Below are positions 1 through 64,000 of a stretch of 64,000 nt of DNA, one piece after another. The notes beneath the pieces were generated by a model. That model had not been told where the DNA came from. It did no database searches and was given only the letters and a program-made list of their open reading frames with translations. Each line of letters opens with the position of its first letter. Position 1 is the first letter of the stretch. Source of the stretch: Rubricoccus marinus (GTDB lineage: Bacteria > Bacteroidota > Rhodothermia > Rhodothermales > Rubricoccaceae); the NCBI RefSeq assembly GCF_002257665.1, contig NZ_MQWB01000001.1:2567127-2631126 (forward strand). Direction: 5' to 3'. The position numbers and the translations under genes are program-made.

Positions 1-2
1 TC

Positions 3-494
3 GTGACCCGCGCCGAAGCGTGGCTGGACGCGCCCCGCACGCTCGCCATCGCGACGCTGCCCGTGTGGCTGTTTGTCCTCCCGTGGCCTCTGGCGCTTGT
101 CGCGACGCTCCTCACCTACGTGCTGTGGGCGCTCGCCGCGCCGGCCCTCGCGAGCCGGTTGGCCGTCCGCCTCGTGCAGGCGCTGGCGCACCCGATGGTG
201 CAGGCCGCAATCTTGCTCGTCGCGCTGTCCCTCCTGGCCCGGACGGGCCGGTACGACGCCGTCTGGGCGGGCCTCGGCGCGTTCGTCGTGCTCCGGCTCG
301 GGCTTCTGGCGCGCGTTCTGGACCCGCTCCTGGCGCGGGCGAACGCTCGGCTGTACCCACTTCCTGTGCCCGATCAGGTGTTGCGCGCCTTTCTCGTGCG
401 CGGCGCGCTCAAGCACGGCATCGCGCTTCCCAGCCTCGGCGAGATCGACGCGAGCGTGCGCGAAACGTGGAAGCGGATTCAGCGCAAGCGATAG
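3..494 (+). CDS. hypothetical membrane protein, possibly 5'-truncated
   Basis: The frame opens at a GTG two bases from the window edge, so the true start may lie upstream. The 163 residues readable here hold three or four hydrophobic stretches (about residues 13-50, 60-78 and 85-105) rich in Leu, Ala and Val. A basic, non-hydrophobic C-terminus of about 50 residues ends in RKR. This suggests a small integral membrane protein with a cytoplasmic tail. I recognise no family motif and assign no function. Confidence 0.55.
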   Translation: MTRAEAWLDAPRTLAIATLPVWLFVLPWPLALVATLLTYVLWALAAPALASRLAVRLVQALAHPMVQAAILLVALSLLARTGRYDAVWAGLGAFVVLRLGLLARVLDPLLARANARLYPLPVPDQVLRAFLVRGALKHGIALPSLGEIDASVRETWKRIQRKR

Positions 495-562
495 CGCACA
501 AAAAGCCCCCGCGCAGGGCCGCACCAGCGCCCGCCTCCGCCTTGACGCGGCGCCAGAGGCGC

Positions 563-570
563 TACCTTTC
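563..570 (+). promoter_or_regulatory. putative -7 promoter element TACCTTTC
   Basis: TACCTTTC lies 20 bases before the ATG at 591. It is one base from the Bacteroidota -7 consensus TAnnTTTG. The same string family recurs at similar distances before several other genes in this window. Confidence 0.4.
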
Positions 571-590
571 TGCCCCCCTCCCCTGGTTTC

Positions 591-2195: not shown

Positions 2196-2804
2196 ATGAA
2201 GCACGCCCTCGCCTGCCTCGCCGCGCTCCTGCTCGCAGGCGCCGCCGCCGCTCAACACACCCACACCGCGCCAGCGGACGCCTCTGGCGACCCCCACGCC
2301 GTCGTGGAAGCGTTTGTCGTGACCGGCCTGCGCGTGGACACGCAGGCGCCGCCGCCCGGCAGCGGCGTGGGTCGGGCCGGCCTCCGCTTTACCGATGGCG
2401 GCTACGTCTCCGTCGTGCACGGCAAGCCGTACGCCAGAGGCCGCGAGGTCTGGGGCGGGCTCGTCGGTTTCGGGAGCGCGTGGGTGGCGGGCGCGCACCG
2501 CGCGACGGAGCTGTTCACGACGGTCCCGCTGATGGTGGGGAGCACGCGGCTGGAGCCGGGCGCCTACTCCCTTTTCGTCACGCCGCACCACAACGCGTGG
2601 ACGCTCCACGTCAACCGCGCCCTCGGGATGCACCTCGCGGACGAGTACGACGCAGCGCTGGACATCGCGCGAGTGGACGCCACGCCGACCGTTCTCCTCG
2701 CGCCCGTCGATGGGCTCACGTGGTCCTTCCTGGAGGACGGGTCGGCGCTGACGCTGGCCTGGGACCGGCAGAGCACGGACTTCCCGATCTCTCGCGCGCA
2801 CTAG
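2196..2804 (+). CDS. secreted DUF2911-type protein
   Basis: The 202-residue protein starts with a signal peptide (MKHALACLAALLLAGAAAAQ), so it is exported. The mature part shows the DUF2911 pattern: a KPYARGREVWGGLV segment, a TTVPLMVGSTRLEPGAYSLF segment and a C-terminal beta region. In Bacteroidota relatives such proteins are periplasmic beta-sandwich proteins of unknown function. The stop codon's last base is the first base of a perfect 18-bp palindrome. One internal half-motif encodes an ASGD stretch right after the signal peptide and another encodes ARG at about residue 80. Confidence 0.8.
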   Translation: MKHALACLAALLLAGAAAAQHTHTAPADASGDPHAVVEAFVVTGLRVDTQAPPPGSGVGRAGLRFTDGGYVSVVHGKPYARGREVWGGLVGFGSAWVAGAHRATELFTTVPLMVGSTRLEPGAYSLFVTPHHNAWTLHVNRALGMHLADEYDAALDIARVDATPTVLLAPVDGLTWSFLEDGSALTLAWDRQSTDFPISRAH

Positions 2805-2821
2805 CCTCTGGCGCCAGAGGC
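2804..2821. repeat. 18-bp palindrome GCCTCTGGCGCCAGAGGC, gene-end copy
   Basis: A perfect copy that overlaps the G of the TAG stop of the DUF2911 gene. It sits between that gene and the convergent hydroxylase-like gene. Confidence 0.9.
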
Positions 2822-3567: not shown

Positions 3568-3593
3568 CGCCAGAGGCCTCTGGCGCCAGAGGC
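3568..3593. repeat. triple-arm copy of the GCCTCTGGCG motif
   Basis: Three alternating arms (CGCCAGAGGC, CCTCTGGCG, CCAGAGGC) overlap, so both possible palindromes are present. It lies in the divergent gap between the hydroxylase-like gene and malQ. Confidence 0.9.
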
Positions 3594-3661: not shown

Positions 3662-5185
3662 ATGACCCGTCGCCAGAGCGGCCTCCTGCTTCACGTCACG
3701 TCCCTGCCGAGCCCGTTCGGCATCGGCGACCTCGGGCCCGGCGCCCACGCCTTCGTGGACTACCTCGCGCGCGCGGGCCAGACCCTGTGGCAGGTGCTCC
3801 CCCTCGTGCCGCCCGGCTACGGGCACTCGCCGTACGCGAGCCCGTCCACCTTCGCGGCCGACGAGTTGCTCGTCAGCCCCGAGCGGCTGATCGAGGACGG
3901 ACTGCTGTCCTCTGGCGACCTCGCAGGCGCGCCGGACTTCCCGGCCGAGCGCGTGGCCTTTGGTGCCGTCGAGACGTACAAGCGCGCGCTCCTGGACCTC
4001 GCCTACGCCCGCTGGCGCGATGGCGACGCGGCGCACCTCTCCGAGGACTACATCCGCTTCTGCAACGAGCACGTGGACTGGCTGGACCGCTACGCGCTGT
4101 TCGCCGCGCTCAAGGTTGCCCACGGAGGCGTCGAGTGGATCGAGTGGCCTGCGCCTCTGGCGCGACGGGAGGAGAGCGCCCTTATCGAGGCCGCGCACGA
4201 GCACGCCGGCGCGATGGACCGGGTCCGCTTCGGGCAGTTCATGTTCTGGCGGCAGTGGGAGGCGCTTCACGATTACGCCCGCACTCGTGGCGTCCGCATC
4301 CTCGGCGACCTCCCCATCTACGTCGCCTTTGACAGCGCGGACGTGTGGGCACACCAGGGGATGTTCCGGCTCGACGCCAGCGGCCGCCCTACGCACGTCG
4401 CCGGTGTGCCGCCGGACTACTTCAGCGAGACCGGCCAGCGCTGGGGCAACCCGCTCTACCGCTGGGACGACATGGAGGCCGATGGCTTCTCGTGGTGGCG
4501 CCGCCGGTTTGCCCACACCGCTTCGCTCGTGGACCTCGTGCGCCTGGACCACTTCCGCGGCCTGGAAGCCTACTGGAGCGTCCCAGCCAGCGAGCCCACT
4601 GCCATAACGGGCGAGTGGGAAAAGGCCCCTGGCGAGGCGCTGATCCGCGCTCTGGAAGCCGAGTCCGGCTCGCCGCTTCCGATGGTCGCCGAGGATCTCG
4701 GCATCATCACGCCAGAGGTCACCGCGCTCATGGACCGCTTCTCGCTCGCGGGCATGGCCGTTCTGCAGTTCGCCTTCGGTAGCGGTGCCGCCAACTCCTT
4801 TCTGCCGCACACCTACCGCCCGCGTCTGGCTGCGTACACCGGCACGCACGACAACAACACGTTCCAGGGCTGGTGGAACGAGGAAGCCACGCCGGAGGAG
4901 CGCGAGCACGCCCGCGCCTACCTCCACCTCGACCACTGCACCGATTCGCCCGCCCGCGCGGCTGTCCGGGCCGTGATGGGTTCCGTCGCCGGGACCGTTG
5001 TCACGCCCATGCAGGACGTGCTTGGGCTCGGCGCAGAGACGCGCATGAACACGCCCGGAACCGTCAGCGACGAGAACTGGGCGTGGCGCGTCCGCGAGGA
5101 TCAGTTCACCGACGAGTCCGCCGCGTGGCTCCGCAGCCTGACCGAGTTGTACAACCGCGGGCCTCTGGCGCCAGAGGCCCGGTAG
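3662..5185 (+). CDS. malQ: 4-alpha-glucanotransferase (amylomaltase)
   Basis: The 507-residue GH77 enzyme transfers maltooligosaccharide segments between alpha-1,4-glucans. The sequence opens with the family's RQSGLLLHVTSLPSPFGIGDLG. It contains the nucleophile region VRLDHFRGLEAYW, the acid/base region VAEDLGIITPEV and the third acidic residue in THDNNTFQGWW. Length is normal. The ATG at 3662 is chosen over an upstream in-frame ATG because the family N-terminus begins here. It lies beside convergent glgX and, further on, glgB, so it probably serves glycogen breakdown. Its last residues (PLAPEAR) are encoded by an 18-bp palindrome. Confidence 0.95.
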   Translation: MTRRQSGLLLHVTSLPSPFGIGDLGPGAHAFVDYLARAGQTLWQVLPLVPPGYGHSPYASPSTFAADELLVSPERLIEDGLLSSGDLAGAPDFPAERVAFGAVETYKRALLDLAYARWRDGDAAHLSEDYIRFCNEHVDWLDRYALFAALKVAHGGVEWIEWPAPLARREESALIEAAHEHAGAMDRVRFGQFMFWRQWEALHDYARTRGVRILGDLPIYVAFDSADVWAHQGMFRLDASGRPTHVAGVPPDYFSETGQRWGNPLYRWDDMEADGFSWWRRRFAHTASLVDLVRLDHFRGLEAYWSVPASEPTAITGEWEKAPGEALIRALEAESGSPLPMVAEDLGIITPEVTALMDRFSLAGMAVLQFAFGSGAANSFLPHTYRPRLAAYTGTHDNNTFQGWWNEEATPEEREHARAYLHLDHCTDSPARAAVRAVMGSVAGTVVTPMQDVLGLGAETRMNTPGTVSDENWAWRVREDQFTDESAAWLRSLTELYNRGPLAPEAR

Positions 5186-5208
5186 ACGCTGCCTCTGGCG
5201 CCAGAGGC
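5161..5208. repeat. two 18-bp palindromes at the malQ/glgX convergent end
   Basis: Perfect copies lie at 5161-5178 (inside the last codons of malQ) and 5191-5208 (in the spacer before the glgX stop). Two such hairpins within 50 bases at a convergent junction would suit a bidirectional 3'-end element. Confidence 0.9.
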
Positions 5209-7358: not shown

Positions 7359-7429
7359 CGGGCGGATCGGGGGAATGCGAAGGGCGGGCGCGAGGATACA
7401 CCGACTCGCGAGACGAAATCGCCAGAGGC

Positions 7430-7492
7430 CTCTGGCGGGAGAGGACTGGGGAACGGGGGACGCAGCCTGTCTGCGCCTCTGGCGCCAGAGGC
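7430..7492. repeat. palindromes plus decayed heptamer in the glgX-glgB divergent region
   Basis: CGCCAGAGGCCTCTGGCG lies at 7430-7447 and GCCTCTGGCGCCAGAGGC at 7475-7492. Between them GGACTGGGGAACGGGGGA looks like a worn version of the 7-bp tandem repeat seen intact at 35844. No clear promoter motif is visible on either side; TAGTCTCGCG near 7611 is a weak candidate for glgB. Confidence 0.75.
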
Positions 7493-9516: not shown

Positions 9517-9534
9517 GCCTCTGGCGCCAGAGGC
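9517..9534. repeat. 18-bp palindrome after glgB
   Basis: A perfect copy begins 4 bases after the glgB stop and ends 10 bases before the stop of the convergent membrane-protein gene. Confidence 0.9.
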
Positions 9535-11425: not shown

Positions 11426-12502
11426 CTAGTCGGCGTCGACGAGTTGGCCGTTGGGCGAGACCGCGGTCTCCTCCACCTCCGCGTTGGGATCGGGGATCAT
11501 GCCGAGTTCGACCCGGATCTTGTTCTTGACCTCCTCGCGGTAGTTCTCGTTCTCCTTGAGCCACGCCTTCGTCGCGTCGCGACCCTGGCCGATTTTGACA
11601 TCGCCGTAGGAGTACCAGGAGCCAGACTTCTGGATGATGTCGTGCTCCAGACCGAGGTCGACGAGCTCGCCGAGGGAGGAGACGCCCTCGCCGTAGATGA
11701 TGTCGAACTCAGCCTGCCTAAACGGCGGAGCCACCTTGTTCTTGACCACCTTAACGCGGGTTCGGTTACCGGTCACCTCCGTGCCGTCCTTGATCGCGCC
11801 GATGCGGCGGATGTCCATGCGGACCGAGGCGTAGAACTTAAGCGCGCGGCCACCGGCGGTCGTCTCCGGGGAGCCGAACATGACGCCGATCTTCATTCGG
11901 ATCTGGTTGATGAAGATCAGGATCGTGTTTGTCCGCTTGATCGTGCCGGTGATCTTGCGAAGCGCCTGGCTCATGAGCCGCGCCTGGATACCGACGTGGC
12001 TGGCACCCATCTCGCCTTCGATCTCGGCCTTGGGCACGAGCGCGGCCACGGAGTCGATTACGACCACGTCAATGGCGCCGGAGCGAACGAGCATGTCACA
12101 GATCTCCAGCGCTTGCTCACCGGTGTCGGGCTGCGACATCAGGAGTTCGTCGGTGTTGACGCCCAGCTTCTCGGCGTAGGTCGGGTCGAAGGCGTGCTCG
12201 GCGTCGATAAAGGCGCACGTGCCGCCCATCTTCTGGGCCTCGGCGATGATCTGCGTCGCGAGCGTCGTCTTACCCGACGACTCCGGCCCGTAGATCTCGA
12301 TGATGCGCCCGCGCGGCACGCCGCCAATTCCAAGCGCGTGGTCCAGCGTCAGCGATCCGGTGGAAACGGCGTCCATCAGGACGGGCGGCGCGTCGCCCAT
12401 CTTCATGACGGCGCCCTTCCCGAACTGCTTATCGATCTGCTTCATCGCGAGATCGAGCGCTTTGACTTTGGCGGCGTCTGTGATGTCTTCTTTGGCGGCC
12501 AT
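11426..12502 (-). CDS. recA: recombinase RecA
   Basis: The 358-residue protein is a standard RecA: it forms filaments on single-stranded DNA, drives strand exchange and triggers LexA autocleavage where LexA exists. Visible motifs are the Walker [10 protein letters not shown], the Walker B segment [10 protein letters not shown], loop L1 around [21 protein letters not shown], loop L2 [19 protein letters not shown] and an acidic C-terminal tail. The start at 12502 is preceded by GGAG at about 8 bases. No LexA box could be identified. It is transcribed alone, with its own terminator. Unlike almost every other long gene here it contains no copy of the GCCTCTGGCG motif. Confidence 0.98.
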
Positions 12503-15481: not shown

Positions 15482-16081
15482 ATGCCCAACGCCTCGCCAC
15501 TCCGATCCGACGCTCAGCGCATCGTCTCAGCCGTCGCCGCGAAGCTGATTTCGAGTCACGAGGTGGCCGAGCGGTTCGAGGTCACGAGCCACCAGGAGGG
15601 GTTCAAGCACGGACTCCTCGGCCCCAACCTCCCGGAGCCCGCCCCGCCAGAGGCCTCTGGCGAGAGCGCGGAGGACGCGCCAGAGGCCACCATAGAGGAT
15701 GAGATGCAGGACCTGAAAGAGGCGCTGACCGGCGACGCGTACGATCGCACGGAGCTTCCGTCCAGCGATCCCGGCGAACTCGTCGTGCGGGCGACGCCGC
15801 GCAGGGGGGCGGAGATCGCGGGGGAGATCGCGGGCGCGGACTTCGTGTTCTCGCGCACGCCCGCCCGTTTGCTGCGCGCGACCGTCCACGCGCCGTCGCT
15901 CCCGCGCTTCGCGGGGTGGATCATGAAGCAGACCGGCGCCGAGCTCGCGTTTACCGAGATCGACGGCGTGCCGCTCGTCTCCGAGATGCGGGTGCGGATG
16001 CGGAGCCGGGGGTTCGGCCGTGCCCGGTTCGACTACGAGTTCGTGACCACGGCGGAGTACGCGCCTCTGGCGAAGGGCTGA
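15482..16081 (+). CDS. conserved hypothetical protein, 199 aa
   Basis: A soluble protein with a helical N-terminus (RSDAQRIVSAVAAKLISSHEVAERFEVTSHQEGFKHG), an acidic variable linker holding PPEASGESAED and APEA (motif-encoded), and a C-terminal alpha/beta part of about 120 residues. No signal peptide or membrane segment is visible. The start is the ATG at 15482. I do not recognise the family. Confidence 0.55.
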   Translation: MPNASPLRSDAQRIVSAVAAKLISSHEVAERFEVTSHQEGFKHGLLGPNLPEPAPPEASGESAEDAPEATIEDEMQDLKEALTGDAYDRTELPSSDPGELVVRATPRRGAEIAGEIAGADFVFSRTPARLLRATVHAPSLPRFAGWIMKQTGAELAFTEIDGVPLVSEMRVRMRSRGFGRARFDYEFVTTAEYAPLAKG

Positions 16082-18477: not shown

Positions 18478-18495
18478 CGCCAGAGGCCTCTGGCG
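18478..18495. repeat. 18-bp palindrome CGCCAGAGGCCTCTGGCG at the NUDIX/integrase junction
   Basis: A perfect copy that starts directly after the NUDIX stop. The integrase-like reading frame begins within it, which marks the left boundary of the island. Confidence 0.9.
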
Positions 18496-18540
18496 GCGGC
18501 CTACGCGCGAGCCGTCCGGCGCTTCTTTGCGTGGTGCGAG

Positions 18541-20081: not shown

Positions 20082-20211
20082 TGACGATAATAATATTATA
20101 AAATATGATGTGCGGCTTTGTTGCCATGATCTATTTGCTGACAAACGCGCTGCCGGCACAGGCCCAATTGAAGCGGGGCTCTGCCCGAATGGTCTGCCCC
20201 GCCTCTGGCGC

Positions 20212-23858: not shown

Positions 23859-23862
<4 letters not shown>
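23311..23862 (+). CDS. ECF-family sigma factor coupled to a Ser/Thr kinase
   Basis: The 183-residue protein has an ECF sigma region 2 (LLERAREGDRDALERLVPIVYQELRALARR through VMRSVIVDRARAQNALKRGG) and region 4 (LSALSPRQGEVVQLRYFVGL, then an HTH in AEVLGISPATVKREWTVAR). It resembles the TIGR02999 (Sig-70_X6, ECF43-like) group, which commonly sits beside Ser/Thr kinases; in Vibrio parahaemolyticus the related EcfP is activated by kinase PknT. No anti-sigma gene is present. The stop overlaps the GTG start of the downstream kinase (GTGA), so the two are translationally coupled. Confidence 0.85.
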
Positions 23863-26312
<2,450 letters not shown>

Positions 26313-26372
26313 GCCTCTGGCGTGAGCCGATCCGCGCACGGATTGCGATGCCCAGACACCGCCCCCGCTGCG

Positions 26373-28813: not shown

Positions 28814-28870
28814 CGCCAGAGGCCTCTGGCGAGGCACCTACAGCGACGCCCGGCCCCTGGCGCCAGAGGC
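28814..28870. repeat. palindrome pair between kinase 2 and a convergent gene
   Basis: A perfect CGCCAGAGGCCTCTGGCG (28814-28831) follows the kinase-2 stop by 2 bases. A variant GCCCCTGGCGCCAGAGGC (28853-28870) lies 24 bases after the minus-strand gene that ends at 28895. The variant base keeps pairing (U-G) only on the minus strand. Confidence 0.8.
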
Positions 28871-32286: not shown

Positions 32287-32508
32287 CCGGGAGGCGCGGC
32301 ATCGGTTCGTCAGTCGTGCGCGGCGCCCCTCTCGCGTCGCGAGCGAAACGGCGCGTTCTGGCCTCTGGCGCCAGAGGCGCGGCGGGGCTCCACCGGCGAT
32401 GCACGGCCTTTCCGCCCCGTCTCCTCTGTGCCGCCGGAGCCGGCGCCCCTACCATCGGCGCAGCCGCCCCCGTCAAACGGGACCGTTTCTTCCACGCCAG
32501 AGGCGCCC

Positions 32509-34103: not shown

Positions 34104-34121
34104 GCCTCTGGCGCCAGAGGC
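34104..34121. repeat. 18-bp palindrome abutting the mscS stop
   Basis: A perfect GCCTCTGGCGCCAGAGGC copy begins at the base after the TGA. Confidence 0.9.
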
Positions 34122-35911: not shown

Positions 35912-35929
35912 GCCTCTGGCGCCAGAGGC
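35912..35929. repeat. 18-bp palindrome abutting the topoisomerase IB stop
   Basis: A perfect copy ends at the base before the TAG of the minus-strand topoisomerase gene. A single half-site lies at 35893-35902. Confidence 0.9.
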
Positions 35930-43080: not shown

Positions 43081-43098
43081 CGCCAGAGGCCTCTGGCG
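43081..43098. repeat. 18-bp palindrome CGCCAGAGGCCTCTGGCG after the phosphomutase-like gene
   Basis: A perfect copy 2 bases after the TAG stop. A worn second copy (CCTCTGGCGCTATAGG) lies at about 43126-43141, before the stop of the convergent gene. Confidence 0.85.
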
Positions 43099-44946: not shown

Positions 44947-44994
44947 GGACTGGAGACTGGAATCGAACCGCCCCACGCCTCTGGCGCCAGAGGC
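44947..44994. repeat. short heptamer array and palindrome after rsgA
   Basis: Two GGGACTG-type units (GGGACTGGAGACTGG, 44947-44961) follow the rsgA stop, and a perfect 18-bp palindrome lies at 44977-44994. The combination repeats the pattern seen after moaB. Confidence 0.8.
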
Positions 44995-45065: not shown

Positions 45066-45110
45066 TCGCAGCCGGTCGTCCTGACGCACATGCGCAGGGC
45101 TCGTCGGCGA

Positions 45111-45223
45111 AGTGAGGGCACGTCCCGCACGGCCAGCTCCTCCTGAACTCCGCCAGGGCCTGACGGCAGCAACGGTAGGGAGTCGATGCGGCGCGATGCG
45201 GATCGCGTGCCCTCACTTTTTTT
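45111..45223 (+). ncRNA. ffs: signal recognition particle RNA, small bacterial type
   Basis: The 5' segment AGTGAGGGCACG (45111-45122) pairs exactly with CGTGCCCTCACT (45206-45217), closing an RNA of about 107 bases that ends in seven Ts (45217-45223). Inside is the conserved domain IV, GAACTCCGCCAGGGCC (45145-45160) opposite GGCAGCAACGGTAG (45165-45178), which is the Ffh-binding region. The apical loop reads TGAC instead of the usual GNRA-type GGAA. No motif copies occur in it. Confidence 0.85.
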
Positions 45224-45327: not shown

Positions 45328-46608
45328 ATGCGCTTCGCCCTCCTCGCTCTCGCCCTCCTCTCGCTGCCTCTGGCGGCGCAAACGCCAGAGGACTCGCTCG
45401 GCTTCTCGGATCTGGAAGCGGACATCCGCGCCACGACCTTCCCCGGAGAGCTCTACTTCCGCCAGCTCGACGAAGCGTGGGACCGCGCCATCGTGGCCGG
45501 GCAGTTCGGGCGGGCAGATAGCGTGGCCGTTCTCGCGGAGACGTACCTGGTAGAGACGCAGGGCACGCCGCGCGATTCCGTGATCTGGCCGTCCATCGCG
45601 GACCGTTTCGCCCTCGGGCTCCTGGCGGGAGATCTCTGGGCCGTCCGCTGGCTCGCGGCCGACGGCGACTGGTGGTCCACGCCTACGTCGACGTGGTACC
45701 CGCGCACGGACGTGTTCTACACGGTCGGGACCCCTCGCCTGACTCTCCTTCCCGGCCCTCGCTACGGCCTGCGGTTCTCCACCGCCAACACGCTGATCCG
45801 CGATTCCAGCGAGGTGCCCCAGCGCCTCGCCGCCAGAGGCGCGAGCGAGGAGGAACTGGCGCTCGCCCGGCTCGCGGTCGCCAAGCTGCTCGTACAGCCC
45901 GCGTGGGGCGGCGGCTATATCGATGTCAGCTTCTCAGACGCGCAGAAGGCGCTCAACGAGCGCGCAGACGCGTTCCTGGAGCGGTACCCGAACACGCCCT
46001 ACGCGCGGTTCGTGCGCGAAGAGGTCCGCGTCCGCTATGACGTGAAGGGCTCGGTTGCGCTCACGTTCGGGTTCGGCCCGGGCTGGGGCTCCGGGAATCT
46101 GGCCGACGCCACAAACACATCGATCGCGGGCGAGATCAGCCTGGGCCTCCGCTACAAATGGGGGCACGCAGCGTTCGGCATCCACGGCGGCGACCTCAAC
46201 GTAGCCGAGACGCGCGTCGGGACCGACGGGACCGAGCTGGTCGAGACGGACAGGCTCTCGGTCGGACTCCTTTCGGTGGAGGCAGGCCCGCGTCTCGCCG
46301 TCGGCGGACTGGACGTGCTGCCCTACGTCGCGGGTGGCCTCTTGCTGCGCGGTGTCTCGGCCCAGAAAACCGATGACGATCCGCTCTCCTCGTACTCTCC
46401 CGGCACGCGCCTCGGATGGGGCTATGGCGTTGGGCTGGAGTATCTCGGGGACCGCCGGAGGCGGTACGGCGGCACCGCCGTGCGCCTGCGCGTCAGTCGC
46501 ATCATGCCCCGCTTCGACCGCGGCTTCGAAACCGTCCTCGACGGCCCGATCACGTCCGTGACCCTCGGGCTCAGCCTCGCCGGCATGATCCGCTCGCGCT
46601 CGTTCTAG
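45328..46608 (+). CDS. outer-membrane beta-barrel protein
   Basis: The 426-residue protein starts with a signal peptide (MRFALLALALLSLPLAAQ). A helical, TPR-like N-terminal half (to about 240) with Trp-rich stretches precedes a C-terminal region of alternating strands: KGSVALTFGFGPGWGS, GEISLGLRYKWGHAAFGIHGG, GLLSVEAGPRLAVGGLDVLPYVAGGLLLRG. It ends in a strand finishing Arg-Ser-Phe, with the terminal Phe typical of BAM substrates. Function unknown. The ATG at 45328 is chosen by the signal peptide. Confidence 0.72.
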   Translation: MRFALLALALLSLPLAAQTPEDSLGFSDLEADIRATTFPGELYFRQLDEAWDRAIVAGQFGRADSVAVLAETYLVETQGTPRDSVIWPSIADRFALGLLAGDLWAVRWLAADGDWWSTPTSTWYPRTDVFYTVGTPRLTLLPGPRYGLRFSTANTLIRDSSEVPQRLAARGASEEELALARLAVAKLLVQPAWGGGYIDVSFSDAQKALNERADAFLERYPNTPYARFVREEVRVRYDVKGSVALTFGFGPGWGSGNLADATNTSIAGEISLGLRYKWGHAAFGIHGGDLNVAETRVGTDGTELVETDRLSVGLLSVEAGPRLAVGGLDVLPYVAGGLLLRGVSAQKTDDDPLSSYSPGTRLGWGYGVGLEYLGDRRRRYGGTAVRLRVSRIMPRFDRGFETVLDGPITSVTLGLSLAGMIRSRSF

Positions 46609-46625
46609 CCTCTGGCGCCAGAGGC
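46608..46625. repeat. 18-bp palindrome exactly filling a convergent intergenic space
   Basis: The last base of the outer-membrane gene's TAG is the first base of the palindrome, and the palindrome ends one base before the minus-strand bshB1 stop. The two convergent genes are thus separated by nothing but this element. Confidence 0.92.
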
Positions 46626-50301: not shown

Positions 50302-50988
50302 TTACTCGCCAGAGGCCTCTGGCGGCGCGGTTTCGCTCTGGAGTTGCGCAAGGAAGCCCTGCATGAACGCCACGCGGCGCTTGGCCTCGCGGCGTCCGGC
50401 CTCGGTCTGCATCGTAGCGGGGAGGCGGAACAGCTTGGCGAAAAAGTGATCCGTCGCGTAGCGCCGGTCGTCCAGCGCGCGCGCCAGAGGCTGGAAGTCG
50501 TCGTCTACAGCGGGCACCGGGTCGTCCGGGTGGACGAGGGCGCTGCCCATCGCGCCCGCCGTGGCGTAGCACCGTGCGATGCCGATGGCGCCGAGCGCGT
50601 CCAGCCGGTCGGCGTCCTGCACCACGCGGGCCTCTGGCGTGCGCGGCGCGATGCCGGCCGAGAAGCTGTGCGCTTCGATGGCGTGCGCAACGGCGTCCAG
50701 CTTGGCGTCGGGAAAACCACGCGCTTGAAGCCAGGCGACGGCCGCGCGGGCCGCGAGGCCGCTGGCGCGCGCGCGGTCGGGCGAGTCTTTGGGAACGGTC
50801 ACGCCGTCGTGCAGCCACGCGGCGGGCAACACGACATCAAGATCCGCCCCCTCCTCTCGCGCCAGGCGCACTGCCGATGCCACGACGCGGCGGACGTGCG
50901 CGAGGTCGTGCGCCGCGTCGCCGTCCATCGTCGCGGCGAGGTGCGCCGCGCAGGCCGCCGCCAGAGGCTCAAGAGCGAGGCGAGACAC
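50302..50988 (-). CDS. HD-domain phosphohydrolase
   Basis: The 228-residue protein has the HD metal-binding set: DAAHDLAHVRRVV, LPAAWLHDGV, AIEAHSFSAG and VVQDADRLDALGAIGIAR, as in YedJ-like phosphohydrolases, which probably act on nucleotides. The start is a GTG whose first base is the last base of the upstream TAG stop, so it is coupled to the lipoprotein gene. The C-terminal PPEASGE is encoded by a palindrome (50307-50324) that overlaps the end of the gene. Confidence 0.85.
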   Translation of the reverse strand: MSRLALEPLAAACAAHLAATMDGDAAHDLAHVRRVVASAVRLAREEGADLDVVLPAAWLHDGVTVPKDSPDRARASGLAARAAVAWLQARGFPDAKLDAVAHAIEAHSFSAGIAPRTPEARVVQDADRLDALGAIGIARCYATAGAMGSALVHPDDPVPAVDDDFQPLARALDDRRYATDHFFAKLFRLPATMQTEAGRREAKRRVAFMQGFLAQLQSETAPPEASGE

Positions 50989-51422: not shown

Positions 51423-54151
51423 GTGGCGACGAGGTTGACGAGACGGCCGGGGACGACGATCTCTTTGCGGATGGTTTTGCCTTCCGTATGGCGCTGCACG
51501 TTGGGCTCGGCGTAGGCGGCTTCGAGGACCGCGGCCTTGTCCGCATCGGCGGCGACGGTGACCGTGCCGCGCAGCTTGCCGTTGACCTGCACGGCGATCT
51601 CGATCTCGTCCTCCTTTAGAAGCTCGGGGTCGTGCTCCGGCCACGGCGCGTAGCTCAGGCTCTCCTCGTGGCCGAGGCGCGCCCACAACTCTTCCGCGAT
51701 GTGCGGCGCGAACGGCGCCAGAAGCTGAACAAAGCGTTCGGCGACCTCTTGCGGGACCGTGTCCCACTTGTAGGCTGCGTTGACGAACTCCATCATAGCC
51801 GCGATGGCCGTGTTGAAGCGCATCGCCTCGATGTCCTCGGTCACTTTCGCGATCGTCGCGTGGAGCGTGCGGAGCTGATCCTTGCTCGCGGCCTCTTGCG
51901 TGATGGAATCGGAGAGGCCGCCAGAGGCTTCGCCCTCGTGGCCGGTCTCGCCGGTGATGAGGCGCCAGGCGCGCGAGAGGAAGCGGTGGACGCCCTCGAC
52001 GGAGCGCGTGCTCCAGGGCTTGGTCGCCTCCAGCGGGCCCATAAACATCTCGTACAGGCGCAGGCTGTCTGCGCCGTACTCGCTCACCACGTCGTCCGGG
52101 TTGACCACGTTGCCGCGGCTCTTGGACATCTTGTAGGAGCGGCTGAGCACGCGGACCTCTGGCGACTCGACGAGCACGAACCCGTCGCCCTTTTTGGTGA
52201 CCGCGTCGTCCCCCACGCGAACCGCCACGAGCGAGGAGCCGTCTCGCTCGTCTTGGAACTTGACGTCGGAGTCGTCCTCGCCCTCCACCTCGACGGCGTG
52301 CTGGGCCGAGACCCAGCCGAAGACCTCGCCGTCGTCGCCCAGGCGGCGGTAGGCGGTGTGCTCCATCTCCCCCAGGATCATGCCCTGGTGGACCAGCTTG
52401 ACAAACGGCTCGGGCGTGGACACGACGCCCGCGTCGAAGAGCACCATGTGCCAGAAGCGCGCGTAGAGCAGGTGCAGAACCGCGTGCTCGCTGCCGCCGA
52501 CGTAGAGATCGACTGGCAGCCAGTACTTCTCCTTTTCGGGGTCTACGAGTTGCTCGTCGTTGTGCGGGTCGAGAAAGCGCAGGTAGTACCAGCACGAGCC
52601 CGCCCACTGCGGCATCGTGTTCGTCTCGCGCTTGGCCTCCTTGCCGTCGACCGTGAGCGAGATCCAGTCCGTCGCCTGCGCCAGAGGCCCGTCGGGGCTG
52701 CCGGTCGGCTTGTAGTCCGGGACCTCGGGGAGCGTGACGGGCAGGGCCTCTGGCGCCAGAGGCTGCGGCGCGCCGTCGATGTGGACGACCGGGAAGGGCT
52801 CGCCCCAGTAGCGCTGGCGGCTGAAGAGCCAGTCGCGGAGCTTGTAGTTGGTCTGCGCGCGGCCCACGCCGTTGTCCTCCAGCCACGCGAGGATGGCAGT
52901 CTTGGACTCCTCCAGGCCCATGCCGTCGAGGTTGGCGCCAGAGGTCGCGATGTCGCTCACGGCGTGGCCGCTGGCGTCGGAGTTGACGTGCGGGCCCTCG
53001 CCGGTGTAGGCCTCTTTGAGCCTGCCGTCGTCGTCCTTCTCGCCGCCCGCGACGACCTCGCGGATGGGCAAGCCATAGGCCTGAGCAAACTCGAAGTCGC
53101 GCTCGTCGTGCGCCGGGACGGCCATGATGGCGCCCGTCCCGTAGGTGTTGAGCACGTAGTCCGCGACCCATACCGGGACTTTCTCGCCGTTGACCGGGTT
53201 GACCGCATGCGCGCCGGTGAAGACGCCCGTCTTAGTCTTCTGCTCCATCCGGTCGCGGTCGGTCTTGTGCGACGCCTTCGTCACGTACGCCTCGACCTCG
53301 CCAGAGGCCTCTGGCGTCGTGATCTGCTTCACGAGCGGATGCTCGGGGGCGAGGACCATGTAGGTCGCACCGAAGAGCGTGTCTGGCCGCGTCGTGAACA
53401 CACGGACGACCTTCTCGGGGTGGCCGAAGACGCGGAAGTCCACCTCGACGCCGATGCTCTTGCCGATCCAGTTGCGCTGCATCTCCTTGGTGGAAACGGG
53501 CCACTCCACGTCGTCCAGGCCGGCCAGGAGCCGGTCGGCGTACTCGGTGATCTTGAGCATCCACTGCCGCATGGGCAGCTGTACCACGGGGTGCCCGCCG
53601 CGCTCACTCTTGCCGTCGATGATCTCCTCGTTCGCGAGAACGGTCCCGAGCGCCGGGCACCAGTTGACGGGCACCTCAGCTTGGTAGGCGAGGCCCTTCT
53701 CGTAGAGCTTGAGGAAGATCCACTGCGTCCAGCGGACGTAACCGGGGTCGGTCGTGTTGACCTCGCGCGACCAGTCGTAGGAGAAGCCGAGGCTCTGGAG
53801 CTGCGTCCGGAACGTGTTGATGTTCTTCTCGGTCGTCTCGCGCGGGTGCGTGCCCGTCTCGATGGCGTACTGCTCGGCGGGCAGGCCGAAGGCGTCCCAG
53901 CCCATCGGGTGGAGCACGTTGAAGCCTCTGGCGCGCTTGTACCGCGCGAGGATGTCCGTGGCCGTGTAGCCCTCCGGGTGGCCGACGTGGAGACCAGACC
54001 CGGAGGGGTACGGAAACATGTCGAGCACGTAGTACGGCTCTTTGCTGGCGTCGAAGCCCTCGTCGCCGGGGCCGAGGGTTTTAAACGTGTCGTGCTCGGC
54101 CCAGTAGGCCTGCCAGCGGGGTTCGATGTCGTCGTGGGGGTAGCCTGCCAT
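51419..54151 (-). CDS. leuS: leucyl-tRNA synthetase
   Basis: The 910-residue class I synthetase charges tRNA-Leu. The HIGH-type motif appears in [15 protein letters not shown], the KMSKS motif in [15 protein letters not shown], and the CP1 editing domain with its Thr/Asp-rich segment ([21 protein letters not shown]) lies between. Length is normal. Motif-encoded runs are tolerated in loops: [13 protein letters not shown] (palindrome 53299-53316) in the editing domain and [11 protein letters not shown] (palindrome 52746-52763) before the catalytic core resumes. The start lies 42 bases after TAGCTTGCG. Confidence 0.96.
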
Positions 54152-58383: not shown

Positions 58384-58387
58384 CTCG

Positions 58388-60919
58388 ATGCCCCGCCTTT
58401 CATTCTTCGCGCTCGGCCTCGCGCTGCTTACCCTCGCGCCTCTGGCGCCAGAGGCCCAGGAGGTCACGGGCCTCTCGGACTTCTCCATCTTCCTTGACCC
58501 CGGGCACAGCCAGAACGAGAACGTCGGCTTTGCCGGCTACTCCGAGGCGCGCAAGACGCTCCGCGTCGGCCTCGCGCTCAAGGACATGCTGGAGACGCGC
58601 ACCGACATCGGCGGCGTGTTCATGTCCCGCACCACGGACCAGGAGTCCGTCTCGCTTTCGCAGCGCACGACGACCGCGAACGCCTCTGGCGCGGACTACT
58701 TCCACTCCATCCACTCCAACGCCGCCGGCCCCACCACGAACTACCTCTTCGTGCTCTGGGCGCAGCTCCCCAACGGCAACGAGCCCAACGCGCCGTACGC
58801 CGGCGGACGCCAGATGGCGGAGACCATGGGCCCCAACTTCGCCGAGGCCATGCGCATCGGTACGCGGGGCACCAACGGCGGCTTCGGCGAGTGCGACTTC
58901 TACGGCGCAGGCTCCTGCGGCAACGGCGTCAAGGGCTCTCGCAACTTCGTGCAGCGCAACTCCTTGATGCCCTCCACGCTGAGTGAAGCCGGTTTCCACA
59001 CCAGCACGACTCAGAACCCGCGCAACATGAACGCGGACTGGAAGGTGCTGGAGGCGCAGTCCATGTTCTGGGCCATCCTGGAATACAACGGCCTCACCCG
59101 CACGCCCGACCGCATCGCGACGGGCATCATCACCGACGGCGAGAGCGGCATCCCGGTCAACGGCGCGACGGTCGAGATCGCGGGCCGGAGCTACACCACC
59201 GACACGTACGAAAGCCTCTTCAACCAGTACAGCTCCGATCCGGACCTGCTGCACAACGGCTTCTACTACCTGCCGGACATGCCCGCCGGTACGCACGCCG
59301 TGACCATCACCGCACCCGGCTACCGCACGGCTACAGGCCAGATCGCGATGCTGGAAGGCGAGTTCTCGTTTTTCGACGCCGAGCTGACCTCCAACGTCCC
59401 GCCTGTCGTGGAGGCGTCCACTCCAGAGGCCGACGATCCGGCCTTCCGCATCACAGACAACATCGAGATCGCCTTCTCGCGCCCGATGGACCGCGCGGCG
59501 ACCGAGGCCGCGTTCTCGCTCGCGCCCGCCTCTGGCGGCGACGAGGTCGCCGGCGCGTTCCGCTGGTCGGACAATGACACCCGCATGGTGTTTGACCCCA
59601 CGGACGATCTGATGGCGGAGACGTTGTTCGCGCTCACCATCGCGGGCACCGCCGAAGGCACTGCTGGCGACGCTCTGGACGGAAACGGCGACGGGACCGG
59701 CGGAGACGCCTTTGCCGTCACCTTCACGTCGGGCTTCCCCGACGCGACGCCTCCGCGCATCGTGGCTGTATACCCTGCCAACAACTCCACCGATGTAGAG
59801 CGGCTTCCCCTGCTGACGCTCACCTACTCCGAGCCCATCGAGGCTGCGACCGTTGACGGCCGCGTAAGCTTGGTGCCGGCCTCTGGCGGCGCAGCCGTCT
59901 CCGGGTCGGTGCAGTACAAGCGCCTTGGCGAGAGGAGCGCGATCAGCTTTTTCCCTGACGCGCCGCTGGCGGCGGGCACCGCTTACCGCCTCGAAGTAGC
60001 CCCCGGCCTGCGCGATCTGTTCCTCAACGAGCAGACCAACCTGCAGCGCCTCACCTTCACGACAGGCGCCCAAACAGCTCTCGCCACGGTCATGGACAAC
60101 TTTGAAGGTGACGTGGCCGACGATTGGTGGGAGCCCCAGCAAAGCGGCTCCACAACGGGCATTGTGACCGACTCGACCTCCTCCGTCGCTACCGACGAGC
60201 TCGCCAGCGGTCTCTACGGAGGCGATTCCTCGTTCCGGATCGACTACGGCTGGAACCTCAACGATCCATCTTGGCTGGTCCGCCAGTACCGGAACGTCTC
60301 GCCCCCACAGGCCGACACGTTCACGGCATCGTCTACACTTCGCGCCGCCGTTTTCGGAGACGGCAGCGGCACGCTGTTTCGCTTCGCCGTTCGCGATCAG
60401 GGCAGCATCGAGGTAAGCCCTTGGCGCGCCATTGATTGGATCGGCTGGCGTGACATCACGTGGGACATCACCGCCGACGGGACGGGAAGCTGGATCAGCC
60501 CTGATGGCACCGTTGACGGGAACGCCTACTTCGATTCTATCCAACTCTCCTACGACGCCTCGGCGGCGAGCGCGCCGTACGGCCAGATCTGGGTGGACGA
60601 TCTCCAAATCGTCTCCTTCACGTCCGTAGCGGGCGAGGAAGCGCCCGAGGCCGCCGTTCTCGCCCTCGGGGACCCGTACCCCAACCCGGTCCGCACCCGC
60701 GCCACCGTTGGGTTCACGCTCGGCACCCCTGCGCCCGTAACGGCGGTCGTCTACAGCGCGACCGGCGCTGAAGTCGCGACGCTCGCCTCTGGCGAGACGT
60801 GGGGCGCCGGCGAGCACCAGATGGAATGGGACGCGAGCACTGTCGCGTCGGGCGTGTACTTCGTCCGCATCCAGGCTGCGGGCCAGACCGAGACCGCGCG
60901 CCTCACGGTCGTCCGGTAA
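58388..60919 (+). CDS. T9SS-exported N-acetylmuramoyl-L-alanine amidase with Ig-like domains
   Basis: The 843-residue protein has a signal peptide ending in a palindrome-encoded PLAPEAQ. An Amidase_3-type catalytic domain follows (about 28-240), with IFLDPGHSQNEN (zinc His), SIHSNAAG and a distal Glu region. Next come a carboxypeptidase-regulatory-like beta domain (about 247-335), two bacterial Ig-like units (FRITDNIEIAFSRPMDRA and VERLPLLTLTYSEPIEA), a beta-sandwich of carbohydrate-binding type (about 570-745) and a C-terminal T9SS sorting domain starting LGDPYPNPVRTRATVGFTL. It should cleave peptidoglycan stem peptides outside the cell. The start at 58388 is chosen by the signal peptide. 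Confidence 0.87.
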   Translation: MPRLSFFALGLALLTLAPLAPEAQEVTGLSDFSIFLDPGHSQNENVGFAGYSEARKTLRVGLALKDMLETRTDIGGVFMSRTTDQESVSLSQRTTTANASGADYFHSIHSNAAGPTTNYLFVLWAQLPNGNEPNAPYAGGRQMAETMGPNFAEAMRIGTRGTNGGFGECDFYGAGSCGNGVKGSRNFVQRNSLMPSTLSEAGFHTSTTQNPRNMNADWKVLEAQSMFWAILEYNGLTRTPDRIATGIITDGESGIPVNGATVEIAGRSYTTDTYESLFNQYSSDPDLLHNGFYYLPDMPAGTHAVTITAPGYRTATGQIAMLEGEFSFFDAELTSNVPPVVEASTPEADDPAFRITDNIEIAFSRPMDRAATEAAFSLAPASGGDEVAGAFRWSDNDTRMVFDPTDDLMAETLFALTIAGTAEGTAGDALDGNGDGTGGDAFAVTFTSGFPDATPPRIVAVYPANNSTDVERLPLLTLTYSEPIEAATVDGRVSLVPASGGAAVSGSVQYKRLGERSAISFFPDAPLAAGTAYRLEVAPGLRDLFLNEQTNLQRLTFTTGAQTALATVMDNFEGDVADDWWEPQQSGSTTGIVTDSTSSVATDELASGLYGGDSSFRIDYGWNLNDPSWLVRQYRNVSPPQADTFTASSTLRAAVFGDGSGTLFRFAVRDQGSIEVSPWRAIDWIGWRDITWDITADGTGSWISPDGTVDGNAYFDSIQLSYDASAASAPYGQIWVDDLQIVSFTSVAGEEAPEAAVLALGDPYPNPVRTRATVGFTLGTPAPVTAVVYSATGAEVATLASGETWGAGEHQMEWDASTVASGVYFVRIQAAGQTETARLTVVR

Positions 60920-61263: not shown

Positions 61264-63096
61264 CTAGCGAACCACCGTGACCGCGCGCGTCTGGCGGTCG
61301 CCATCGGCGTCCAGCACGATCACGTACGTGCCGCTGGCGACGGCCGCTCCGTTCGAGCGAGCGTCCCACGTTACGGACTGAGCACCCGCGGCGCGGGGCT
61401 CATCGTCTACGAGAACGCTGACCTCGCGGCCGAGCACGTCCATCACGCGGAGCGTGACGCGGCCAGGCTCCCGGAGCGTAAACGCCACCTCGGTCTCGCG
61501 CGAGAACGGGTTCGGACGCGGCGGCAGTAATGACGCCAGAGGCGCTGGTCCGGCTTCGCTTGCCGTGTCGCGCCCTTCGATCATCACGATGTTGCTCGGT
61601 GCCCCCTCAATGGAGTTAGAGCTCACAGCGCGAACGACGTAGTACCAGTTCAGCGCATCCGCGTTGGGCCGGTCTACGAACGTCGTCTCCCCCGTCACGG
61701 CCACGAGGTTGGCCGGGTCTTCCAGCGCCATCGCGAGGTTGGGCTCCCCTTCTGAGAGGATCTTGTAGACGGCGTAGCGGCGCGTCTCGGCGGCGCCGTC
61801 CGTCGGCGCGCTCCACGTCAGTGTCACGTCCAACGCGCCCGTCCACTCGGACGCCAGAGGCCCTGGTGTGCCGGGGGCATCCAGGCTTTTCCATGCCATC
61901 GTTGGCGTGAGTGCGGCACGGCGGTACAGGTCCGTCTTCAAGGAATCGCGGAAGCCCTGGGAAGCGTACAGCGAGACATTTTTCGCCCGGAAGAGGATGT
62001 GCCCCTGGAGGTTCTCATCTTCGCGCGTGAGCCGGATCTGACGTGGGATCTCGTTGGGCTGGAATCGAGCGCCGCTGTACGTGTTGTTATCAGAGCGGTA
62101 GAGGCCGAGGCCAGGGTACACGTGGCGGTCATTGCGCTGCTCCCCCCACCATGGTGCGAGGCGGCCGAAGTCCTGCCCTCCTCCGAATGCCCAGTACGTC
62201 TGGGGCGCGAGGTAGTCCACGGTCTCGTTGTCCATCCACGAGACGGCGTCAGCGTAGATCGTGTTGTAAGCGTCTAGTCCCGAGATACCTGAAGGGACGC
62301 CGTTCTTCCAAATCCCGAACGGACTCACGCCCCACTTCACCTCCGGCTTGAGCGCGTTGATGCTGTCCTGCACCTGCGCCACCATGAGGTTCACGTTGTC
62401 ACGCCGCCAATCCCCAATGCTCACGAAGCCTCGGGGATCCGCTTGGAACGTGTCCGCATCTTGGTTCGAGATGTTGTTCGGCGGGTACGGGTAGAAGTAA
62501 TCGTCGATGTGCATCCCGTCTACGTCGTACCGACGAACGATGTCAGCAACGACGGTCGCCATCCGGTCCCGTGCGGCCTGCAATCCCGGATTGTAGATCT
62601 TGATGTCGCCGAACTCGAGCAACCACTCCGGGTTGGTATTGGTCACGTGGTTATCGGCCTTGGGATAGGAGGACCCCCGATCCGCACGGTATGGGTTGAG
62701 CCATGCGTGGAGCTCCATGCCTCGCGCGTGCGCCTCTTCGATGACGAACTCCAGTGGGTCGTAGTAGGGATCGGGTGCGACGCCCTGCTCGCCAGTCAAC
62801 CAGTAGGACCATGGTTCCAGATCCGACTGGTACAAGGCGTCGCTCTCGGCTCTCACTTGGAACATGACGGCGTTCACGCCAGAGGCCTGCAGTTGGTCCA
62901 GCATGCTTCGGAGCTCAGCTTGCTGGCCGAACGTGCTTCCGTTTCGGCTATTGGGCCAGTCCAGGTTGATGACGGTCGCGATCCACGCGCCGCGGAACTC
63001 CTGCTTGGGTCCCACCGGTGTGACCAGAGACTGAGCCTCTGCGGTGGTACCTCCCGCGATCAACGCGGCGAGGAGGAAAAGGGAAAGGGCTCGCAT
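61264..63096 (-). CDS. T9SS-exported GHL10-type glycoside hydrolase (YngK/DUF187 family)
   Basis: The 610-residue protein has a signal peptide (MRALSLFLLAALIAGGTTAEAQ) and a (beta/alpha)8 GHL10 domain (about 33-390). Family segments are EFRGAWIATVINLDWPN, FQVRAESDALY, ELHAWLNPYRA, YDVDGMHIDDYFYPYP with the catalytic-site Asp pair, and YLAPQTYW. A fibronectin-III-like domain follows (about 410-500), and a C-terminal T9SS sorting domain begins LPPRPNPFSRETEVAFTL. YngK relatives act on glycans, possibly peptidoglycan-derived. With the neighbouring amidase it suggests a secreted cell-wall-degrading set. Confidence 0.88.
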   Translation of the reverse strand: MRALSLFLLAALIAGGTTAEAQSLVTPVGPKQEFRGAWIATVINLDWPNSRNGSTFGQQAELRSMLDQLQASGVNAVMFQVRAESDALYQSDLEPWSYWLTGEQGVAPDPYYDPLEFVIEEAHARGMELHAWLNPYRADRGSSYPKADNHVTNTNPEWLLEFGDIKIYNPGLQAARDRMATVVADIVRRYDVDGMHIDDYFYPYPPNNISNQDADTFQADPRGFVSIGDWRRDNVNLMVAQVQDSINALKPEVKWGVSPFGIWKNGVPSGISGLDAYNTIYADAVSWMDNETVDYLAPQTYWAFGGGQDFGRLAPWWGEQRNDRHVYPGLGLYRSDNNTYSGARFQPNEIPRQIRLTREDENLQGHILFRAKNVSLYASQGFRDSLKTDLYRRAALTPTMAWKSLDAPGTPGPLASEWTGALDVTLTWSAPTDGAAETRRYAVYKILSEGEPNLAMALEDPANLVAVTGETTFVDRPNADALNWYYVVRAVSSNSIEGAPSNIVMIEGRDTASEAGPAPLASLLPPRPNPFSRETEVAFTLREPGRVTLRVMDVLGREVSVLVDDEPRAAGAQSVTWDARSNGAAVASGTYVIVLDADGDRQTRAVTVVR

Positions 63097-63111
63097 GGAT
63101 CTGTACGTCTG

Positions 63112-63155
63112 TCTAGAAAAGAAAACGGGCGCCGAACCCGAAGGCCCGGCGCCCG
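63112..63155 (-). terminator. intrinsic terminator of the last gene
   Basis: On the minus strand a 9-bp stem (CGGGCGCCG with CGGCGCCCG, 63126-63134 and 63147-63155) is followed by GTTTTCTTTTC. It lies 45 bases after the stop of the partial T9SS protein gene. Confidence 0.75.
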
Positions 63156-63199
63156 GGAGATTGCATCTAACGCCAGAGGCTGGCGCGAGAAGCGTTCAT

Positions 63200-64000
63200 C
63201 TACCGCATGTGGAGCATGCGACGGCTGACGCGCTGGCCGTCAACTTCCAGTGCGAACACGTAGACGCCGCCAGCGAGGCCGGTTGCATCGAACGTGACCG
63301 TGTGAGAGCCGCTGGCGCGCGGTCCCTGGGCAAGCGTGCGGACCTCACGGCCCGTCACGTCGTAGACCTGGACCTTGACCGTCGCCGGATTGTCGAGCTC
63401 AAACGTGATGTCCGTGGAGCCGTTGAACGGGTTCGGGACGTTCTGGTGAAGCGTCACGCCGTCGACCTCCGGACCGCTCTGAACGGCCGTGCCTGCGAAA
63501 GTGAACTTCTGCAGTGCGGGGGACGCGAGGTTGAACTCACCGACGTACGCGACGGTGCCTTCCGGGTTGAACGCGATCGCGCGGGGGCGGCCGTCACCGG
63601 GGTTGTTCCAGACGATCGAATCCGAAGGAGCCGGAGTCGGGTCCGTGAGGACATCGTTGGCGTCGAACTCGTACCACGTGTGCGGCTGGTAGCGGCGCTC
63701 AACACCGTTCGCGTCGGTCCAGTAGCCGGTTGGCAGGTCGTTCGGGCTGCCTGCGCTTGCCCAAACCTTGCCACTCGTCGGGTGAATAGCCATGGACTCA
63801 ACAGCCATGCCCTCAAACGCGATGGTCAGCGAATCGTACGGCGTGAGGTCGTCCGGGCGCTGGAGCACCGTTGCCACCTTAGCGCTGTAGTTCGGCACGA
63901 TGACGGTGTTGCCATCTGGGTACGCGAACAGCGTGCGGTTGAAACCGAGCGAGGGGTTCTGGAGGTTCTCGATAAAGTCCAGCGTAGAGCCGCTGTACTT
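63200..64000 (-). CDS. T9SS-sorted secreted protein, N-terminus outside the window
   Basis: The frame is open to the window edge, so the 266 codons seen are the C-terminal part only. Repeated segments of beta-propeller type are visible (AVESMAIHPTSGKVWAS, PRAIAFNPEGTVAYVGEF), then a sorting domain starting LHQNVPNPFNGSTDITFEL and ending DGQRVSRRMLHMR, which is the T9SS type-A C-terminal pattern. It is probably a surface or secreted protein of unknown function. It lies upstream of the GHL10 gene on the same strand, separated by a terminator. Confidence 0.8.
   Translation of the reverse strand, partial: KYSGSTLDFIENLQNPSLGFNRTLFAYPDGNTVIVPNYSAKVATVLQRPDDLTPYDSLTIAFEGMAVESMAIHPTSGKVWASAGSPNDLPTGYWTDANGVERRYQPHTWYEFDANDVLTDPTPAPSDSIVWNNPGDGRPRAIAFNPEGTVAYVGEFNLASPALQKFTFAGTAVQSGPEVDGVTLHQNVPNPFNGSTDITFELDNPATVKVQVYDVTGREVRTLAQGPRASGSHTVTFDATGLAGGVYVFALEVDGQRVSRRMLHMR

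Follow-up and report, generated by a model that had tools for sequence, protein, structure and literature searches.

To our knowledge, uptake-type words that occur as dialects are established only in two proteobacterial families. The genomes with DNA uptake sequences (DUS) studied by Frye et al. hold 943 to 5918 copies, the densest 5918 in 2.4 Mb, and in all of them inverted pairs are numerous and DUS lie in permissive regions (PMC3630211). Other words of this kind are HIP1 (GCGATCGC) of cyanobacteria, which gives way to alternative words in some relatives (PMC4390886), and the Chi sites, found about once per 5 kb in E. coli (PMC8022716). In the present study 64,000 nt of Rubricoccus marinus (Rubricoccaceae, Rhodothermales; contig NZ_MQWB01000001.1), hereafter the window, were analyzed together with the whole genome (G000) with regard to the 10-mer GCCTCTGGCG, which we tentatively read as a genome-wide self-recognition tag whose mode of action may be that of the uptake sequences known from Neisseriaceae and Pasteurellaceae.

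Within the window 225 exact copies were counted, where dinucleotide-preserving shuffles gave an expectation of 0.56 ± 0.74. With 116 copies on the plus and 109 on the minus strand, about 3.5 per kb, the recurrence on both strands throughout the window that had been noticed in the initial annotation was borne out. Under a third-order Markov model no other multi-copy 10-mer was as strongly over-represented as GCCTCTGGCG (225 vs 3.8, both strands). The word is non-palindromic, since its reverse complement CGCCAGAGGC differs. The count in the complete genome (4,430,441 bp, 15 contigs) had been set beforehand as the point on which the initial annotation should stand or fall: 7049 + 7127 = 14,176 copies (3.2 per kb) faced 24 + 37 = 61 of the reversed control word, and the annotation therefore stands, with an enrichment that spans the genome. 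The word was present everywhere in the window and in 39 chromosome tiles of 20 kb, strand-balanced in each and without polarity along the chromosome, the base-by-base reading covering about a fifth of the chromosome and less of the relatives. One-mismatch forms, whose count had been proposed as a check, were likewise in excess (1359 vs 253 expected, many of them transitions), also between genes (256 vs 29), and the flanks of the word carry weak information only, without an extended consensus. The initial annotation knew of no element with this sequence, and of the 27 open-access papers that contain the string, the 20 with titles listed indeed treat unrelated subjects; nor was any report of self-recognition tags in this branch of life found in the open-access literature.

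Outside R. marinus the word is at background, which holds for 60 close relatives as well as for 296 further genomes from the phylum. The highest count, 99, was obtained in G001, a member of the same genus, where the reversed control reached 101; the closest named relative by recA is a metagenome-assembled genome (MAG) of the Rubricoccaceae with 79% identity, the matches of recA in genome contigs being otherwise mostly proteobacterial. Scans of relatives' stretches revealed other words: CCGCCAGC is over-represented in G001 and G007, with whole-genome counts (control in brackets) of 8020 (1599) and 7454 (2023) as against 1111 (1125) in R. marinus, and CCGCCTCGG in G004, G006 and G008, with 4084 (459), 3300 (241) and 2523 (304) as against 491 (308), the assignment of these three genomes resting on the whole-genome counts and less than 90 kb of sequence per genome. 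No word of comparable enrichment was seen in G002, G003 and G005, of which 34-63 kb were scanned. Three words are hence distributed among six family members, and their likeness, judged by eye, lies in CGCC, common to CGCCAGAGGC, CCGCCAGC and CCGCCTCGG, and CGCCAG, common to CGCCAGAGGC and CCGCCAGC. The dialects cross genus lines, as G001 belongs to the genus of R. marinus but has the word of G007. That the sites of R. marinus and those of G001 and G007 are shared and ancestral was rejected, their coincidence being only slightly above chance (5 vs 3.1; 6 vs 3.9). Codon usage was also discarded as the source of GCTGGCGG, the G001 and G007 word read on the other strand, which is 29-fold enriched in intergenic DNA of G001 and seven times less frequent in R. 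marinus with its near-equal usage of CTG and GCG. Two further words were encountered: a HIP1-like palindrome, TGCGATCGCA, in G003 (8 in 34 kb vs 0.1 expected; stretches L006, L190-L193, L201), and a CAGGTTGGCA-type word that occurs 16-19 times in a single 18-kb stretch of G028 (L019, C1), where the excess is probably a local protein repeat.

The placement of GCCTCTGGCG was analyzed in 844 kb of the R. marinus genome with an in-house gene caller based on codon usage. As initially annotated, the word lies both inside and between genes, with a density of 2.5 per kb in genes and 8.35 per kb between them (950 intergenic copies vs 1.5 expected), a threefold difference that rules out an artefact of codon usage. 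Convergent gaps are densest with 11.5 per kb, followed by tandem (8.7) and divergent gaps (5.8), and of the 422 genes that are followed by enough room, 320 have a copy in the 100 bp downstream. Most copies are nonetheless found inside genes, chiefly in frames coding for Ala-Ser-Gly, x-Pro-Glu-Ala and x-Pro-Leu-Ala, while the frame that requires Trp is rare (43 of 1843). Comparison with orthologs in G001, G007, G004 and G006 gave an amino-acid identity of 0.39 at motif codons, 0.43-0.51 up to ten codons out and about 0.54 beyond (11-20 codons). The most conserved third of the genes carries 1.6 copies per kb and the others 3.2-3.4; recA (11426..12502, minus strand), a highly conserved gene, and the signal recognition particle (SRP) RNA (45109..45216, plus strand) have none, in agreement with the initial annotation. 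Orthologous sites in G001 deviate from GCCTCTGGCG at about four positions on average, and the copies therefore arose mostly after the split or in fast-changing stretches. The comEC gene of R. marinus (L226:6690-9227) holds 15 copies in 2.5 kb, over double the average for genes.

Overlapping inverted pairs of GCCTCTGGCG form perfect 18-bp palindromes with zero gap, either P1 (GCCTCTGGCGCCAGAGGC) or P2 (CGCCAGAGGCCTCTGGCG), of which the genome contains 184 and 101, respectively, with 2.4 expected for each. The intergenic P1 comprise 42 in convergent, 18 in divergent and 84 in tandem gaps, 65 of the last being closer to the 3' end; altogether 74% of intergenic P1 and 68% of intergenic P2 are convergent or closer to a 3' end. 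Although this position would suit intrinsic terminators, these were rejected, as the palindromes are not followed by a T-run. Carriage by phages was likewise dismissed after one 18-bp pair found no match in viral contigs.

Beyond the overlapping pairs a strand rule became apparent. Among pairs of copies the same-strand share is 28% at 11-60 bp (z -9), 39% at 60-150 bp (z -6) and 44% at 150-300 bp (z -4), and the two orientations are balanced at greater distances; this avoidance holds within genes, too. The relatives' words display short-range shares of 10% (G001), 25% (G007) and 7% (G004 and G006 pooled). As a control, 31 other frequent 8-mers of R. marinus go the opposite way, 65% of their pairs at 11-60 bp sharing a strand, though two of them, AGAGGCCG and AGAGGCCT, retain some overlap with the motif and belong to those with the lowest values. 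Deletion between direct repeats is a less likely source of the avoidance because it is also seen within genes. Reading of the word on one strand or template switching with inverted copies would explain it, neither of them firmly.

Mobile DNA is poor in the word. Contig C15 (L115, L222, L223), whose GC is equal or higher, has only 6 copies in 60 kb; it is a conjugative plasmid with genes for a relaxase, a Rep3 initiator, VirB4-, VirB8- and VirB11-like proteins, TrbI and a coupling protein. Other contigs of similar GC were C14 with 29 copies in 80 kb, C10 with 88 in 139 kb and the mosaic C11 (L111, L213-L218) with 15 in its first 60 kb and 137 in the next 80 kb (1.7 per kb). The genes for type IV pilin and ATPase on C11 lie in its motif-poor first part. 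A comparable gap occurs just once in the window, beside a phage-type integrase gene (18541-19314), and is likely a foreign insertion or the edge of one. The initial annotation had described an AT-rich, motif-free island after 19.3 kb; a gap indeed exists, but it is short, extending over 1.7 kb from 18496 to 20200 (GC 0.577; 0.516 from 19315) with the motif back at 20201.

An uptake-type tag is preferred because this anatomy fits that of the DUS of Frye et al. in its thousands of copies, dialects, permissive sites and inverted pairs. A receptor of the lineage would prefer DNA carrying GCCTCTGGCG, and word-bearing DNA of sister cells would be taken up and recombined more than word-free DNA, so that chance copies would spread wherever protein or RNA tolerates them and word-free foreign DNA would be shut out. 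A change of receptor in relatives might then have led to new words, CCGCCAGC and CCGCCTCGG, as dialects. That the word works like an uptake sequence appears better supported by the anatomy than that it is one, and a role of its reader in DNA uptake is what we infer. The initial annotation had compared the pattern with uptake sequences and with HIP1: the former likeness gained from dialects, gene-end inverted pairs, permissive sites and scarcity on mobile DNA, while the latter turned out weaker.

Several points weigh against an uptake function. The receptor is the weak point, as none was identified, and uptake by R. marinus is assumed. Family E-values were computed per single genome after a loose first pass that may overlook distant members, and absences are therefore provisional. 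ComEC was found in all 12 genomes tested; it is widespread in bacteria, and hence its presence says little. ATPases of the T2SSE type occur in all genomes but G001, a 91%-complete MAG which nevertheless has a dialect; R. marinus possesses T2SSE- and T2SSF-type genes on the chromosome, one T2SSE copy adjoining a T2SSF gene. Pilins matching Pfam N_methyl were detected in R. marinus on C11 only, with none on the chromosome, and there was no such match in G001, G007, G004, G006 and G008. Finally, same-strand copies avoid each other up to about 300 bp and opposite-strand copies do not, which is no obvious consequence of taking up DNA in double-stranded form. It is also possible, with somewhat less to recommend it than the uptake-type tag, that Rhodothermota possess a self-recognition tag outside the known classes, i.e., a strict, dialect-switching word read one strand at a time by an undescribed enzyme or uptake machine.

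Chi-type sites were not considered in the initial annotation, whose list of options was incomplete in this respect, yet the relatives' words make them a serious rival. GCCTCTGGCG would accordingly be a single-stranded word read by a RecBCD-like helicase-nuclease, at which degradation halts and RecA is loaded, and the three words would represent dialects of Chi. This reading is the main rival because GCTGGCGG is one of five words published as Chi candidates in Proteobacteria (PMC8022716), differs by one base each from E. coli Chi (GCTGGTGG) and from the experimentally identified Chi of P. syringae (GCTGGCGC; PMC5959072), and occurs in a genome encoding both RecB (TIGR00609, above cut-off) and, beside it, RecD (TIGR01447; G001, L162:13819-19999). 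GCTGGCGG and the R. marinus word have CTGGCG in common in register, and spacing that depends on the strand would go well with a motif that is read on a single strand. False positives are, however, suspected among the high-GC candidates by those who made the Chi survey (PMC8022716), E. coli Chi is 16 times sparser than the word of R. marinus, and the latter lacks the strand polarity that Chi has along the chromosome in E. coli, although some known Chi sites are likewise without skew (PMC5959072). PDDEXK_1, the RecB/AddAB-type nuclease domain, had no match in the R. marinus genome (RecC was not sought) but was matched in G001, G004, G006 and G007, weakly outside G001. Where the genes flanking recD of G001 recur in R. 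marinus, other genes stand in place of recD-recB, the nearest resembling a lysyl-tRNA synthetase by eye. Inverted pairing at gene ends, as seen in R. marinus, is not a Chi feature known to us. Chi is therefore held to be doubtful, a little less probable than a tag outside the known classes; if true, it would constitute an unusually dense set and Chi evolving by dialect.

A HIP1-like origin, in which the word would result from mismatch repair linked to methylation or from another biased repair process and would have no selected function, is unlikely; it is disfavoured since the chromosome yielded no methylase from three main families. The density of the word is at least that of HIP1, and the one-mismatch excess with its many transitions fits decay and restoration of perfect copies, but the word is non-palindromic and neither gene-end inverted pairing nor strand-specific spacing is predicted. 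PF00145 and PF01555 were not found in R. marinus and PF02384 gave only a weak match, on plasmid C15 (other families, such as PF02086, PF05869 and PF07669, were not searched). Template switching is equally improbable as the whole explanation: a strand would pair back onto a copy close by, turning an imperfect inverted copy into a perfect one, and hairpins at gene ends would persist because they end or stabilise transcripts. It would account for the surplus of inverted neighbours within about 150 bp, the zero-gap palindromes and the copies shortly downstream of genes; it covers pairing but not thousands of single copies or dialect changes, the palindromes are without a T-run and most copies are inside genes. 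A binding site of an abundant nucleoid-associated protein is the least probable of all, for despite the even chromosome-wide spread on both strands, the sites of most nucleoid proteins are degenerate, unlike a strict 10-mer that occurs at 3 per kb, has dialects and is scarce on a plasmid of equal GC.

Copies in the window start, with strand, at 86+, 551-, 897+, 1017-, 1622-, 2096+, 2175-, 2280+, 2432-, 2804+, 2812-, 3568-, 3576+, 3584- and 4153+ in the first 5 kb, where the initial annotation had listed the ten from 551 to 2812 correctly to about 10 bp and overlooked that at 86. From 5 to 10 kb they follow at 5161+, 5169-, 5191+, 5199-, 5352-, 5451+, 5837+, 6945-, 7038-, 7104+, 7420-, 7428+, 7475+, 7483-, 7581-, 7837+, 8072+, 9189+, 9328-, 9517+, 9525- and 9871-; from 10 to 15 kb at 10039+, 10503-, 10610-, 10886+, 10945-, 11278+, 11376-, 11395+, 12684-, 12784+, 13118+, 13448+, 13920+, 13955-, 13984+, 14405+, 14456+, 14493-, 14551-, 14636- and 14893+; and up to 20 kb at 15115+, 15151-, 15376+, 15645-, 15653+, 15678-, 16063+, 16117-, 16153+, 16428-, 17332-, 17369+, 17582+, 17778+, 17833-, 17983+, 18478- and 18486+. 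The next 5 kb hold 20201+, 20762+, 21045-, 21108+, 21150-, 21441-, 21752+, 22408+, 23236+, 23419-, 23619+, 24048-, 24065+, 24392-, 24513+, 24549+, 24620- and 24901-, those from 25 to 30 kb 25341+, 25493+, 25656+, 25781-, 26038-, 26313+, 26831-, 27018+, 27087+, 27213+, 27442-, 27455-, 28814-, 28822+, 28861- and 29516+, and those from 30 to 35 kb 30496+, 30640-, 30648+, 30763-, 30771+, 30848+, 30856-, 31334+, 31562+, 31600-, 31780-, 31923+, 32123+, 32361+, 32369-, 32495-, 33124-, 34038+, 34104+, 34112-, 34353-, 34385+, 34843-, 34898+ and 34950-. Between 35 and 40 kb starts are 35221+, 35275-, 35829-, 35893+, 35912+, 35920-, 36139+, 36427-, 36868+, 37817-, 37825+, 38171-, 38289+, 38328-, 39376+, 39744- and 39868+; between 40 and 45 kb 40252+, 40514-, 41580+, 41760+, 42028-, 42043-, 42069+, 42466+, 42516-, 42614+, 43081-, 43089+, 43355-, 43592+, 43912+, 43925-, 44977+ and 44985-; and between 45 and 50 kb 45315-, 45366+, 45831-, 46608+, 46616-, 46817-, 47231-, 47459-, 47474+, 47565-, 47755-, 48034+, 48477+, 48610+, 48656- and 48920-. 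The remainder are 50029+, 50114+, 50307-, 50315+, 50482-, 50630+, 50959-, 51311-, 51325+, 51919-, 52679-, 52746+, 52754-, 53299-, 53307+, 53924+ and 54204- up to 55 kb, and 55614-, 56246-, 56410+, 56511-, 56841+, 56907-, 57318+, 57503-, 57790+, 58011+, 58438+, 58446-, 58682+, 59528+, 59879+, 60785+, 61081+, 61255-, 61534-, 61852-, 62877- and 63171- up to 64 kb.

As to the palindromes among these, P1 lies between convergent genes at 2804..2821, 5191..5208, 9517..9534, 35912..35929 and 46608..46625, elsewhere between genes at 7475..7492 and, upstream of the SRP RNA, at 44977..44994, in the divergent gap upstream of the PriA gene at 32361..32378, and at 34104..34121 directly past a gene end (34103). 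Within genes it occurs at 5161..5178, there at the 3' end, at 30848..30865 (PriA), 52746..52763 (leucyl-tRNA synthetase) and 58438..58455. P2 was located between convergent genes at 28814..28831 and 43081..43098, in other intergenic DNA at 7420..7437, at a gene 3' end at 50307..50324, and directly past the gene end 18477 at 18478..18495, the final copy before the integrase gap; its sites within genes are 15645..15662, 30640..30657 and 30763..30780 (both PriA), 37817..37834 (histidine kinase) and 53299..53316 (leucyl-tRNA synthetase). An intergenic triple (-,+,-), in which P2 overlaps P1, spans 3568..3593. The motif-rich part 23311-28811 contains a gene for an ECF sigma factor and, after it, two large genes, of which one encodes a serine/threonine kinase with TPR repeats, as by eye does the second.

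If the preferred reading of an uptake-type tag is true, Rhodothermota would harbour a set denser than the DUS of Frye et al., with three dialects in a small, culturable marine family, and the origin and switching of uptake words could be approached independently of Neisseria; whichever reading holds, strand-specific avoidance is a measurable constraint on theories of how highly iterated words spread. With the DUS of Neisseriaceae the R. marinus word shares a near-invariant form of about 10 nt, thousands of copies, higher density where DNA is permissive or intergenic, inverted pairing, similar words within one family and scarcity in foreign DNA (PMC3630211), but it belongs to another phylum, is GC-rich, exceeds in count and density any reported there (PMC3630211), lacks a detected ComP-like pilin, and shows zero-gap overlapping pairs and same-strand avoidance. 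It resembles the uptake signal sequences of Pasteurellaceae in being short, non-palindromic and present in very many copies, with a one-mismatch excess, and differs in sequence, phylum and the lack of an extended flanking consensus. Chi (GCTGGTGG, GCTGGCGC) comes close to the family through GCTGGCGG, one base off, RecB with RecD in G001 and strand-specific behaviour, whereas the R. marinus word has more bases, exceeds the density of E. coli Chi 16-fold, forms pairs at gene ends and lacks polarity. HIP1, finally, is equally very dense genome-wide, in and between genes, and replaced by alternative words in some relatives; unlike GCGATCGC, the R. marinus word is non-palindromic and spaced in a strand-specific manner, and a methylase to match it was not detected on the chromosome.

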